Positions 50,992 to 54,059 of a stretch of DNA of 54,059 nt are shown here, one piece after another. Source of the DNA: Oscillospiraceae bacterium. Its GTDB lineage: Bacteria > Bacillota > Clostridia > Oscillospirales > Ruminococcaceae. The notes under the pieces were generated by a model that saw only the letters and a list, made by a program, of their open reading frames with translations, searched no databases and was not told where the DNA came from. The stretch lies in assembly GCA_017481565.1 (NCBI GenBank), contig JAFUOZ010000035.1, forward strand, positions 1 through 54,059, written 5' to 3'. The position numbers and the translations under genes are program-made. Every line of letters starts with the position of its first letter. Within the stretch, counting starts at the first letter, position 1.

Positions 50992-52254
50992 ATGCAGAAA
51001 CTTATCATACAAGGCTCACGGCGCATCGGCGGAGAGATGAATATACAAGGTGCAAAAAATTCTGTTCTGCCCCTTATGGCAGCGTCGGTGCTGTGCGGCG
51101 GAATAGTCAATATCGGAAACTGTCCCGCAATAAGCGACCGTTATGCCGCTATGCGTATACTCAATCATCTGGGCTGTACCGCCTGTGAACGTGACGGATA
51201 TGTACAGATAGATTCAGGAGCTATCCGCCGTACCGATATCCCCGATGAGCTGATGCGTGAAATGCGCTGCTCGGTGATTTTCATGGGGGCGCTTCTGGGA
51301 CGGTGCGAAAAATGCAGGATATGCTTTCCGGGCGGCTGCGATCTGGGTCCCCGTCCGATAGATATGCACCTGAGCGCTCTTGAAAAAATGGGTGCGGAAA
51401 TAAATATCGGCCACGGAGAAATATTATGCAGCGCTCCCGACGGTCTTTGCGGTGCGAAAATAACACTGCCTTTTCCATCGGTGGGCGCTACGGAAAATAT
51501 AATCCTTGCCGCCGTTCTTGCAGAGGGTGAAACAATAATTCAGAATGCCGCAAGAGAGCCTGAGATACATGATCTGATAAAATTTTTAAATACAAACGGC
51601 GCAGAAATAAAAAGCGCAGGGGGACGGATAATCATAAACGGTGTAAAACGGCTCACTCCTTCGGCTGAGCTTTATGAGGTCATACCCGACAGAATAGCCG
51701 CCGCTACATATCTGTCCTTTGCGGCGGCATGCGGCGGAGAGCTTCTTATCAAAAAATGCTGTCCATCACATATGGACGCTGTTATCCCTCTTTATGAGCA
51801 GATGGGCTGCTATATAAAATGCTTCGGAAGCAATATCTATATCAGGAGCAGAGGAAAACTGAAAACTTCGGGTACTGTCCGTACTATGGTATATCCCGGA
51901 TTCCCTACCGATGCACAGGCTGTATTGATGGCTCCGCTTTGCATCGGCGAGGGCACGGCTGTTTTTGTGGAGAATATCTTTGAAAACAGATATCGTCATA
52001 CGGGAGAAATGCAGCGAATGGGTGCGGATATCCGTGCGGAAGGCAAGGTGGCTGTTGTCACGGGAGTTGAGGGGCTTTACGGCGCAAAGGTGGAGGCCCC
52101 CGACTTAAGAGGCGGTGCGGCGCTGGTTTGTGCCGCATTATCTGCTGAGGGAAAAAGTATCATCAGCCGTGCGGAGCTTATCGACAGGGGCTATGAGCGC
52201 ATTGAGGATAATCTGAACAGGCTCGGTGCGGCGGTAAGACGTGAAGCGGAATAA
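50992..52254 (+). CDS. murA: UDP-N-acetylglucosamine 1-carboxyvinyltransferase
   Basis: 420 aa. GAKNS holds Lys22-Asn23, and FPGGCDLGPRPIDMH places the catalytic Cys116 (fosfomycin target) in the flexible loop. GFPTDAQA contains the general-base Asp. The remaining EPSP-synthase-type two-domain fold is intact (IPDRIAAATYLSFAAACGGE, ENIFENRYRHTGEMQRMGA). It transfers enolpyruvate to UDP-GlcNAc, the first committed step of peptidoglycan synthesis. Several Cys-rich segments (RCEKCRICF, KKCCPS) are unusual, so it may be the diverged second MurA copy common in Firmicutes. A weak ribosome binding site, AAAAGGGGCT, precedes ATG 50992. Confidence 0.95.
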   Translation: MQKLIIQGSRRIGGEMNIQGAKNSVLPLMAASVLCGGIVNIGNCPAISDRYAAMRILNHLGCTACERDGYVQIDSGAIRRTDIPDELMREMRCSVIFMGALLGRCEKCRICFPGGCDLGPRPIDMHLSALEKMGAEINIGHGEILCSAPDGLCGAKITLPFPSVGATENIILAAVLAEGETIIQNAAREPEIHDLIKFLNTNGAEIKSAGGRIIINGVKRLTPSAELYEVIPDRIAAATYLSFAAACGGELLIKKCCPSHMDAVIPLYEQMGCYIKCFGSNIYIRSRGKLKTSGTVRTMVYPGFPTDAQAVLMAPLCIGEGTAVFVENIFENRYRHTGEMQRMGADIRAEGKVAVVTGVEGLYGAKVEAPDLRGGAALVCAALSAEGKSIISRAELIDRGYERIEDNLNRLGAAVRREAE

Positions 52255-52266
52255 AAAACAAAGTGC

Positions 52267-52295
52267 TTGACAAACCTCTTCTTATGGTGTATAAT
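52267..52295 (+). promoter_or_regulatory. Promoter of the Mn-riboswitch transcript
   Basis: TTGACA (52267-52272), 17-nt spacer, TATAAT (52290-52295). Confidence 0.9.
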
Positions 52296-52302
52296 AAAGA
52301 AA

Positions 52303-52480
52303 AACTTATGAGGGAGTAGCAAGCGCTTTCGGCGTAACAAGTCAACATACTGACCATTTCGGTCTGGCTTGTTTTAAATTGCGAGACTCATGTATATCTG
52401 AAAAGCTATGCATGGAGTCTGTATATATGTTTATCAACCCCAAGGATAGCTCAACTGTTATCCTTGGGGTTTAATATTTT
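52303..52480 (+). ncRNA. yybP-ykoY (manganese) riboswitch with terminator
   Basis: The conserved signatures are GGGAGTAGC at 52312-52320, GTCAACATAC at 52341-52350, and GCGAGACT at 52381-52388. P1 forms between TTATGAG (52307-52313) and CTCATG (52387-52392). The 3' part AGACTCATG can pair instead with CATGGAGTCT (52411-52420), and the terminator stem AACCCCAAGGATA/TATCCTTGGGGTT lies at 52436-52471 with a T-rich tail. The class senses Mn2+ and usually turns on exporters. Here the next gene is an ATC-hydrolase-like protein. The SD GGGAGGTG sits after the terminator. Confidence 0.85.
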
Positions 52481-52494
52481 GGGAGGTGCTCATA

Positions 52495-53136
52495 ATGGGC
52501 AGAATTACTGTTGAATACGCAAAAAAGATAATAAGAAAAAAGCCGATGACACAAAGTCTTAAAAAAAGATTTATTGAAAACGGTCTTTCCGATCTGCTTG
52601 ATGAAGTATATATCCGTACCGCAGAGCTGTTTGAAGAAAACCGTTCGGCAAACAAGGCGTTTAAGCGGCATCTTGAACAGATATTGCCATGTATTGCCTT
52701 TTATGAAGCATTGATAAAAAAGACAGGCTGCAAAAGGAAAGCTTTAGAGCTTTATAATAAATGGGCATTTGATCGTCTGAAAAAAATGGCAGTAATACTT
52801 CGTATTATCATGAAAACGGGTCTGTACAGAAAAACTCCCGAAATATTCGACAAAATGATAGACAGGCTCTTCGGTCAGCAGGCGGGATTTGTAAGCAGAA
52901 AAATAAAGGTGAGCAGACCCTTTGCAAGAGATATGCTGCGATGCCCTTATTATGAAACCTGCAAAAAATACGGCTGTCCCGAAATAACGCAGTTTTTCTG
53001 TAAATCTGACGATATCACCTATGGAAATATGCACCCAAAGCTTGTCTGGGGAAGAACTCAGACCCTGGGTACAGGCGGCAGCTGCTGTGATTTCAGACTT
53101 TATCTTATTACTTCGGCAATTAAACAGTTTGATTAA
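52495..53136 (+). CDS. L-2-amino-thiazoline-4-carboxylate hydrolase-like protein
   Basis: 213 aa from ATG 52495, after GGGAGG. The longer GTG reading at 52486 overlaps this ribosome binding site. Residues about 1-110 are helical (basic, soluble). The C-terminal part is Cys-rich: RCPYYETCKKYGCPEITQFF, CKSDDITYGNMHPKL, RTQTLGTGGSCCDFRL. The C-x-x-x-x-C-x-x-x-G-C-P-E pattern and final CDFR fit the ATC_hydrolase family, which opens a thiazoline ring towards S-carbamoyl-cysteine; cysteines could bind metal. It is under a Mn2+ riboswitch. The last codons (ITSAIKQFD) lie in an inverted-repeat arm. Enzyme identity is by family pattern only. Confidence 0.75.
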   Translation: MGRITVEYAKKIIRKKPMTQSLKKRFIENGLSDLLDEVYIRTAELFEENRSANKAFKRHLEQILPCIAFYEALIKKTGCKRKALELYNKWAFDRLKKMAVILRIIMKTGLYRKTPEIFDKMIDRLFGQQAGFVSRKIKVSRPFARDMLRCPYYETCKKYGCPEITQFFCKSDDITYGNMHPKLVWGRTQTLGTGGSCCDFRLYLITSAIKQFD

Positions 53137-53228
53137 CTATTTCTAAATTACAATAATTGTCGTATCTGCAACTTTTTGGAAAAATCAAGCACCGAGCAAT
53201 CAAATTATATTATTGCCGAAGTAATAAG
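53104..53228. repeat. Inverted repeat around the ATC gene end and methyltransferase leader
   Basis: Left arm 53104-53134 and right arm 53199-53228 are about 80% complementary (CTTATTACTTCGGCAAT against ATTGCCGAAGTAATAAG perfect over 17 nt). The loop is 64 nt. The left arm encodes the ATC protein's last residues; the right arm ends 13 nt before the methyltransferase start. Confidence 0.75.
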
Positions 53229-53241
53229 GAGAAATGAGAAT

Positions 53242-53868
53242 ATGAGCCAACAGCTTTTATATTCTGTTATTGCAAAATTCTATGATTTAGTAGATATAAT
53301 TTACTTTTCCAAGTGGGAAACAAGTCCACGAAAGGCAGTTTCCGACAGGATAAATAAAAATGAACGTATACTTGATCTGTGTACGGGAACAGGAACAAAT
53401 GCTGTAAATATAGCAAAGCAGTTTCCTATGACAAAAATCGTCGGAGTTGATCTTTCAAAGGCTATGCTTAGTATTGCTAAAAATAAAGCTGATAAAGAAA
53501 ATGCAGACAATACAAGATTTTATCGTATGGACGCAACACAGCTCAGATTCAGAAATGAGACCTTTGATAAAATACTGCTTTCCCTTGTACTTCACGAAAC
53601 AGAGGACGAGCTTTCGGCAGCAATACTCTCAGAGGCAAAGCGTGTACTTAAAAACGACGGCGAGCTTATTGTGACCGAATGGGAGAAAAGCAGCTCGCCT
53701 TTGAAAAGATTGCTTTTTTTGCCGGTTGAATTACTTGAGCCGAAATCCTATAAAAAATTCATCAAAGCGGATATGCACAGTTATTTTGCAGCTTACGGCT
53801 TTGAAATAAAGGAATATATCCATTGTGATTACTCTAAAGTTATTATTTTAAAAAATCAGACCTCTTGA
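53242..53868 (+). CDS. Class I SAM-dependent methyltransferase
   Basis: 208 aa from ATG 53242, preceded by AAGGAG. The longer reading from 53176 has no ribosome binding site. Motif I is ERILDLCTGTGTNAVNIA (about 41-58) with acidic GVDLSKAML and the MDATQLRF adenine-binding segment. DKILLSLVLHE is motif IV, and the RVLKNDGELIVTEWE segment motif V/VI, like the UbiE/phospholipid N-methyltransferase group. The substrate is unknown: quinone, arsenic, lipid or small thiols are possible. It is separated from the ATC gene by 105 bp with an inverted repeat but no evident promoter, so it may be under the same riboswitch. Confidence 0.85.
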   Translation: MSQQLLYSVIAKFYDLVDIIYFSKWETSPRKAVSDRINKNERILDLCTGTGTNAVNIAKQFPMTKIVGVDLSKAMLSIAKNKADKENADNTRFYRMDATQLRFRNETFDKILLSLVLHETEDELSAAILSEAKRVLKNDGELIVTEWEKSSSPLKRLLFLPVELLEPKSYKKFIKADMHSYFAAYGFEIKEYIHCDYSKVIILKNQTS

Positions 53869-53893
53869 CAATCAATAAAAAATAGGATATAAT
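53865..53893 (+). promoter_or_regulatory. Promoter of rnpB
   Basis: TTGACA (53865-53870), 17-nt spacer, TATAAT (53888-53893). It overlaps the stop of the methyltransferase gene. Confidence 0.92.
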
Positions 53894-53899
53894 TGATAA

Positions 53900-54059
53900 T
53901 GCGAGTAAGCTATGCGGTTGAACGCTTCGGCGTTAGGAAAGTCCGGGCATCACAGAGCAGGATAGCTGCTAACGGCAGCCGAGGGCGACCTTAGAGCAAG
54001 TGCAACAGAGATATACCGCCTGATTTATTCAGGTAAGGGTGGAAAGGCGGGGTAAGAGC
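53900..54059 (+). ncRNA. rnpB: RNase P RNA (class A), 5' part
   Basis: Catalytic RNA that matures tRNA 5' ends. The conserved CR-I sequence GGAAAGTCCGGGC is at about 53936-53948, CACAGAGCAGG follows at 53951-53961, and GTGCAACAGAGA appears near 54001. AGGTAAGGGTGGAAAGGCGG and GGTAAGAGC close the visible part. The 3' half, including the CR-V strand of P4, lies beyond the window. The 5' end is set about 7 nt after the -10. Confidence 0.95.

Follow-up and report, generated by a model that had tools for sequence, protein, structure and literature searches.

A likely yybP-ykoY-type riboswitch ahead of ATC_hydrolase-family and SAM methyltransferase genes in an Oscillospiraceae bacterium

Most known manganese riboswitches belong to cation-transporter genes (PMC7266159), the third base of the X. 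oryzae L3 loop contacts Mn2+ (PMC6754395), and ON-type antitermination has been published for the yybP-ykoY class, in which Mn2+ steadies the P1 helix and antitermination results (PMC6754395, PMC11087558). No report of such a riboswitch paired with an ATC hydrolase or a methyltransferase was present in the literature searched, which covered few subscription journals and was partly available. Here, we analyzed a stretch of 54,059 nucleotides from an Oscillospiraceae bacterium (contig JAFUOZ010000035.1, referred to as the window), in which a yybP-ykoY-type leader immediately precedes an ATC_hydrolase-family gene (ATCH) and, farther downstream, a gene for a SAM methyltransferase (Table 1). High Mn2+ is predicted to turn transcription on at this locus, and we consider this overall reading probable. 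It is based on the parts of the leader and on two recurrent associations, that of the riboswitch with a downstream ATCH and that of methyltransferases with a neighboring ATCH, all obtained by sequence and comparison, and it would further entail Mn2+ as the ligand, the ON direction, cotranscription of the methyltransferase and a role for ATCH.

With the ON type of RF00080, represented by Lactococcus lactis yoaB, the window shares the L1 and L3 loops, the discriminator A, the P1 switch helix and a terminator after the aptamer. However, the terminator of the yoaB type shares a strand with P1, whereas a separate competing hairpin and an antiterminator are predicted in the window. The window also differs from the RF00080 class in that it scores under the Rfam cut-off and in that its first gene does not encode a transporter. 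The riboswitch-mntP units of Clostridia have a related leader, and two of the loci (L066 and L072) include ATCH in second place, behind mntP; in contrast, ATCH comes first in the window, with no adjoining mntP.

Table 1. Positions of the features of the locus in the window
Feature	Position	Strand	Evidence
Promoter TTGACA-17-TATAAT, sigma-70-type	52267..52295	+	12/12 consensus matches
yybP-ykoY-type aptamer (likely): P1 ATGAG/CTCAT, L1 GGAGTAGC, P2, P3 with L3 ACATACT (52345-52351)	52303..52392	+	motif, clade model, partial RF00080 match
Competing hairpin, takes the P1 3' strand (predicted Mn-free form)	52380..52423	+	minimum free energy fold
Antiterminator (predicted), 52404-52418 paired with 52437-52451	52404..52451	+	fold of partial leader, aptamer held
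Intrinsic terminator hairpin, then T-rich tail	52436..52471	+	scan and covariation (7/15 pairs)
ATC_hydrolase-family gene (ATCH), 213 aa	52495..53136	+	PF14196, E 1.2e-23
MITE, 31-nt inverted end repeats (87% complementary), 22 genome copies	about 53105..53228	unassigned (.)	copy comparison
UbiE-like class I SAM-dependent methyltransferase, 208 aa from ATG	53242..53868	+	PF13649, E 1.2e-22; PF01209, E 8.8e-20

The leader follows a MurA/EPSP-synthase-type gene (PF00275) that ends at 52254. Both yybP-ykoY signatures named in an earlier note on this DNA, made from the sequence alone, were found, namely, GGGAGTAGC at 52312-52320 and GTCAACATAC at 52341-52350, with GCGAGAC closing. The L1 (GGGAGUAG) and L3 (CAACAUAC) loops of the class are intact, and the invariant A is kept. 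The L3 sequence of the window, ACAUACU, is identical to the Mn2+ loop of X. oryzae, and comparison with the latter (ACA48UACU52; PMC6754395) identifies A52347 as the predicted Mn2+-contacting discriminator A. The P1/P2/P3 junction is present, and its 27 pairs are paired in 96.9% of cells in six leaders, as compared to 24 to 44% when the pairing is slid. The fold of the leader (52300-52485) is 5.7 standard deviations under that of dinucleotide shuffles, with none of 200 as low. Covariation of the aptamer in the six leaders is weak (2 compensatory pairs, with 175 of 500 shuffles as high) because the aptamer is near-invariant and most of its pairs never vary. The loops, the junction and the presence of related leaders before transporter genes support the Mn2+-type assignment made in the earlier note, and the leader is likely to be a yybP-ykoY-type riboswitch, for which we infer Mn2+ as the ligand. 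A chance occurrence of the motif was also considered and was ruled out by the fold relative to shuffles, the matches of the clade model and the covariation of the terminator, which are described below.

No RF00080 match was obtained in the window at the curated cut-off, and a search of 52240-52500 with E-value reporting returned a partial match (52336-52373, 18.7 bits, E 0.002) that did not reach the cut-off of 45. The mntP leader of the same genome also remained under the cut-off (32.8 bits). Among 61 genomes, including that of the window, none contained RF00080 above the cut-off, and a site at an E value of 0.01 or below was found in five. A covariance model, termed R1, was derived from six leaders (the window, L025 and four of the seven riboswitch-ATCH loci described below) with hand-written P1/P2/P3 pairing, so that L073, L075 and L076 are independent of it. 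Positions 52303-52392 scored 106.9 bits with R1, a score that follows by construction, since the window is among the six model leaders.

R1 was positive in 172 of 394 genomes of the order (E 0.001). As compared to 0 of 61 for RF00080, in samples and at thresholds that differ, this indicates that the Rfam model under-calls yybP-ykoY in Clostridia. Among the R1 matches listed, 130 leaders (30 returned loci and 100 fetched) were surveyed, all of which were used, with strands taken from tables. For these 130 among the matches listed, the first recognized gene downstream encoded MntP (74 leaders, two types pooled), a P-type ATPase (40), a CaCA exchanger (8) or ATCH (1), and none was recognized in 7. 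Transporter genes of three known kinds were thus the first recognized genes after 122 of the 130 leaders, and the sole ATCH among them was that of the window itself. All 123 recognized genes start at most 430 nt from the leader, and inspection by eye assigned the remaining seven to UPF0016 (two), phosphate-transporter-type (two) and OadB-like (one) genes and to TetR-type regulators (two). Since most of the surveyed leaders precede transporter genes, R1 mainly marks cation-transport leaders, as expected of the yybP-ykoY class. The genome of the window contains a second leader of this type, located before mntP. Individual R1 matches were seen before CaCA exchangers in L127 (Pfam), L105 (phmmer) and L156 (by eye) and before an ABC transporter (L170) and OadB-like genes (L171 and L271; by eye).

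Relatives of ATCH were retrieved from 84,980 species genomes with two conserved peptide patterns. This resulted in 37 loci, of which 15 share 51 to 76% identity over most of the protein, 18 share 33 to 45% and 4 are partial; the nearest by identity is L066, from a Ruminococcus MAG. With the same two patterns, a search of viral contigs for a phage origin gave no match. Of the 15 close loci, seven (L066, L069, L072, L073, L075, L076, and L079) have an R1 riboswitch ahead of ATCH. It was not found in the other eight, including L067 with only 708 nt upstream, nor in any of the other 22 loci, among which six offer fewer than 400 nt of upstream sequence. RF00080 itself, searched with E-value reporting in twelve of the 15 close loci, was detected in L066 only.

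In the seven loci and the window, ATCH directly follows the riboswitch in six of eight cases, and the order riboswitch-mntP-ATCH is present in L066 and L072. A rough estimate of the probability that riboswitches occur upstream of ATCH by chance is 6e-21, a value that ignores relatedness. In L075, a single riboswitch precedes a row of genes for ATCH, a small protein, an LCM-type methyltransferase, an alpha/beta hydrolase and MntP, with gaps of 53, 1, 54, and 19 nt. In a tree built from 25 ATCH proteins, 8 rows of which carry the riboswitch label, this label needs 6 changes (shuffled mean of 7.0, with 141 of 500 shuffles as low). The label is hence no more clustered than expected by chance, which indicates that the riboswitch was gained or lost repeatedly. 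Inspection by eye distinguished two aptamer subtypes before ATCH, namely, that of L075 and L076 and that of the rest. In G436, a riboswitch is followed by a small protein and then by a distant PF14196 protein (L157, G436:C5). In the family of L072, a close ATCH (E 1e-55) was found in only one of 397 genomes, that of L072 itself; together with the eight close loci in which no leader was found, this shows that the riboswitch-ATCH arrangement is rare. The earlier note had named the ATC_hydrolase-like gene as the first target, and both its Pfam match and its recurrence after a riboswitch, in the window and in 7 of 15 close loci, bear this out. By sequence comparison, the combination of a riboswitch-type leader with an ATCH target is real, recurrent and rare. 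The circumstance that the earlier note regarded as fatal, that exporter genes are the true targets in relatives, is found in part, because a transporter came first in 122 of 130 cases among the matches listed, yet ATCH follows directly in six loci; an ordinary exporter riboswitch as the only explanation is ruled out by these six.

Several minor observations concern these loci. The divergent aptamer subtype has the L3 sequence UCAGUAC and precedes ATCH in L075 (4701-4804) and L076 (4785-4885), and a related form precedes mntP in L163 (by eye). No PF02659 (MntP) gene was detected at E 1e-5 in the genomes of L076 and L079 (G434 and G437), the assemblies of which may be incomplete, and the genome of L069 has an MntP gene, located away from its only R1 match. 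Relatives of the small protein of L157 adjoin ATCH in L066, L067, and L073 (by eye for L157).

The switching elements named in the earlier note were recovered as well: the competing hairpin is part of the minimum free energy fold, and the terminator is supported by the scan and by covariation. In the six leaders, 7 of the 15 terminator pairs changed on both sides, with 0 of 500 shuffles as high. The competing hairpin is paired in 91.2% of cells without any compensatory change, and covariation of the antiterminator is weak (one compensatory pair, with 182 of 500 shuffles as high). When the aptamer pairs were held in computed folds of the partial leader (156 to 162 nt), 52404-52409 paired with 52446-52451, the end of the 5' arm of the terminator. 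In the complete leader with the aptamer held, the terminator still forms (-56.1 kcal/mol); the unconstrained fold, which contains the competing hairpin, reaches -64.4 kcal/mol. Given this terminator and the advantage of 8 kcal/mol for the unconstrained fold, control would have to be decided during transcription. An antiterminator test was conducted on 48 leaders, 32 of which have a terminator by rule; six of them (the window, L066, L069, L072, L073, and L079) duplicate loci that also served in other analyses, and six further loci, the leader of which was missed by the pattern, were left out. In 24 of the 32 leaders, the stretch before the terminator pairs with the 5' arm of the terminator better than 95% of shuffled arms, and the pairing of the window ranks 6 of 300. 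The region from 52404 to 52451 is likely to be an antiterminator.

In the mechanism that we propose, the 3' strand of P1 would be taken up by the competing hairpin when Mn2+ is lacking, the terminator would form, and transcription would stop before ATCH. Mn2+ bound between L1 and L3 would hold P1, and the strand around AAGCTATGCATGG would be freed to pair cotranscriptionally with the 5' arm of the terminator, allowing the polymerase to transcribe ATCH and likely to read through the MITE into the methyltransferase gene. The predicted ON direction agrees with the published mechanism.

ATCH matches PF14196 (ATC_hydrolase) with 84.9 bits, as compared to a cut-off of 28.1, and Cys150, Cys156, Cys169, and Cys198 are invariant in 35 aligned proteins. 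No NCBIfam family was matched at 0.01, and a search of solved structures with the ATCH profile gave no match at 0.001, with 0.18 for the best. The Pfam name ATC_hydrolase derives from thiazoline hydrolase. ATCH shares with ATC hydrolase the Pfam match over the cut-off and the conserved cysteines but differs from it by the manganese-related context, and a thiazoline-ring activity of the ATCH clade is putative. The AlphaFold2 model of ATCH is confident (mean pLDDT of 88.6), and its comparison with the PDB using Foldseek gave no match at an E value of 0.001 or better. The first rank was occupied by the V4R protein MJ_1460 (2oso, E 0.16), the highest probability (0.75) was obtained for an H-NOX protein (4u99), and the lower rows included Bet3 and the V4R phenol sensors PoxR, MopR, and DmpR, with designed proteins mixed in. 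Since no match was significant and designed proteins were among them, the likeness of the predicted fold to the V4R/H-NOX/Bet3 superfamily, seen at nonsignificant scores, is a lead only. According to a published sequence analysis, PF14196 is related to V4R and HNOB and has the cysteine cluster in common with V4R (PMC5847659). ATCH probably acts with the methyltransferase on a small molecule, which it would bind or convert in a pocket that resembles those of V4R/H-NOX proteins and contains a cysteine site. The metal- or thiol-detoxifying role proposed in the earlier note is hypothetical.

The downstream gene was correctly described in the earlier note as a SAM methyltransferase. Its score with the Pfam domain Methyltransf_25 is 80.8 bits (cut-off of 27). 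Among the 25 NCBIfam families listed, none passed its cut-off, and the best score for UbiE/MenG, with TIGR01934, was 90.1 bits as compared to the 158.35 required. We searched the 34 loci with a whole ATCH (window included) with phmmer, using the UbiE-like protein of the window and the LCM-type protein of L075, and found nine methyltransferase genes from two families, UbiE-like (window, L084, L086, and L089) and LCM-type (L075, L076, L085, L090, and L094). Pfam confirmed eight of the nine, and that of L085 was detected by phmmer only. All nine are on the strand of ATCH and within 1 kb, a zone that covers 11% of the strand-length on the flanks (P about 3e-9; the 1-kb limit was set afterwards, and relatedness was ignored). 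Other recurring neighbors of ATCH are alpha/beta hydrolases, DUF6796 proteins and small proteins, including one in L075, L076, and L079 that is a membrane protein by eye. A small protein in the analyzed loci, provisionally labeled SRPBCC, had no match in Pfam.

Both genes are present as described in the earlier note, which had overlooked the mobile element between them. The element has the properties of a MITE, since it is short (about 124 bp), has terminal inverted repeats and occurs in 22 copies with 85 to 100% identity. It supplies the last codons of ATCH, resulting in the tail ITSAIKQFD, which is common only to the 98% identical protein P0001 and absent from the other 33 aligned proteins. 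The MITE ends 13 nt before the ATG of the methyltransferase gene, and an earlier TTG of this frame is inside it. Because the MITE sits between the genes, the link of ATCH to the methyltransferase is weaker in the window. As no terminator was found between the two genes in a simple scan, read-through is plausible, and we infer cotranscription of ATCH with the methyltransferase of the window. The pairing claimed in the earlier note has comparative support from the strand and distance of all nine matches and is qualified by the two methyltransferase families and the MITE. Across the wider family, ATCH likely has a methyltransferase partner; in the window, this partnership is uncertain. On contig C47, another copy of the MITE lies at approximately 0.2 kb from the riboswitch of mntP.

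Several alternatives bear on this interpretation. The prevalence of transporter genes after the surveyed riboswitches (122 of 130 among the matches listed), the position of mntP between leader and ATCH in L066 and L072, and the mntP gene that the genome of the window retains elsewhere under its own leader would fit a riboswitch left over from a lost riboswitch-mntP unit, in which deletion of mntP put a bystander ATCH under a functionless Mn2+ response. We regard this as unlikely, considering the direct succession of riboswitch and ATCH in six loci, the 6 changes of the riboswitch label without clustering above chance and the two aptamer subtypes. Moreover, promoter, aptamer and terminator are all intact in the window, ATCH is first and mntP last in L075, and the distant PF14196 gene of G436 likewise follows a riboswitch. 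An aptamer for another divalent ion, such as Ca2+ or Fe2+, would explain the unusual target, but is very unlikely, given that the L3 loop of the window equals the X. oryzae Mn2+ loop with the discriminator A kept and that related leaders in the order precede mntP. In its favor, the L3 loop varies in L025 and L073, a review deems yybP variants with altered metal specificity likely and of help in explaining odd gene associations (PMC7266159), and a streptococcal member is described with a response to Mn2+/Ca2+ (PMC9495176).

It is possible, although somewhat doubtful, that ATCH is the sole functional target and that the methyltransferase is an unrelated neighbor past the mobile element. Apart from the MITE itself, this is suggested by the fact that no homologue of the methyltransferase was found at E 1e-20 in 60 other related genomes and that no UbiE-type gene was found beside the seven other riboswitch-ATCH genes, where the only methyltransferases are of LCM type, in L075 and L076. 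On the other hand, UbiE-type genes follow ATCH in L084 and L089, LCM-type genes are neighbors in five further loci, the intergenic region lacks a terminator in the simple scan, and the nine matches agree in strand and proximity.

The best reading is a manganese-inducible non-transport module, with ATCH and the methyltransferase likely forming a non-transport arm of the manganese response. High manganese probably induces a small chemistry module in these cells, and not only metal export. More tentatively, and with more doubt than confidence, this may be an undescribed module in which an ATC_hydrolase-family protein and a SAM methyltransferase make or alter a small molecule that protects clostridial cells from Mn excess. 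In relatives, this module may also include an alpha/beta hydrolase and small membrane proteins, and it would sometimes share an operon with the exporter gene mntP. If the target family carries out small-molecule chemistry, bacteria would answer manganese excess with metabolism too. Orphan PF14196 proteins would also gain a genetic handle, as their expression would be testable with one metal.

The simple scan of 52200-54059 detected a single terminator-like site, that of the leader. Since shuffled sequences yielded 4.1 promoters and 1.3 terminators by chance, the count of promoters and terminators alone is little proof. Another promoter with 12/12 matches (53865-53893) overlaps the stop codon of the methyltransferase gene and precedes an RNase P RNA (RF00010) at 53902-54059, which is cut off by the end of the window.
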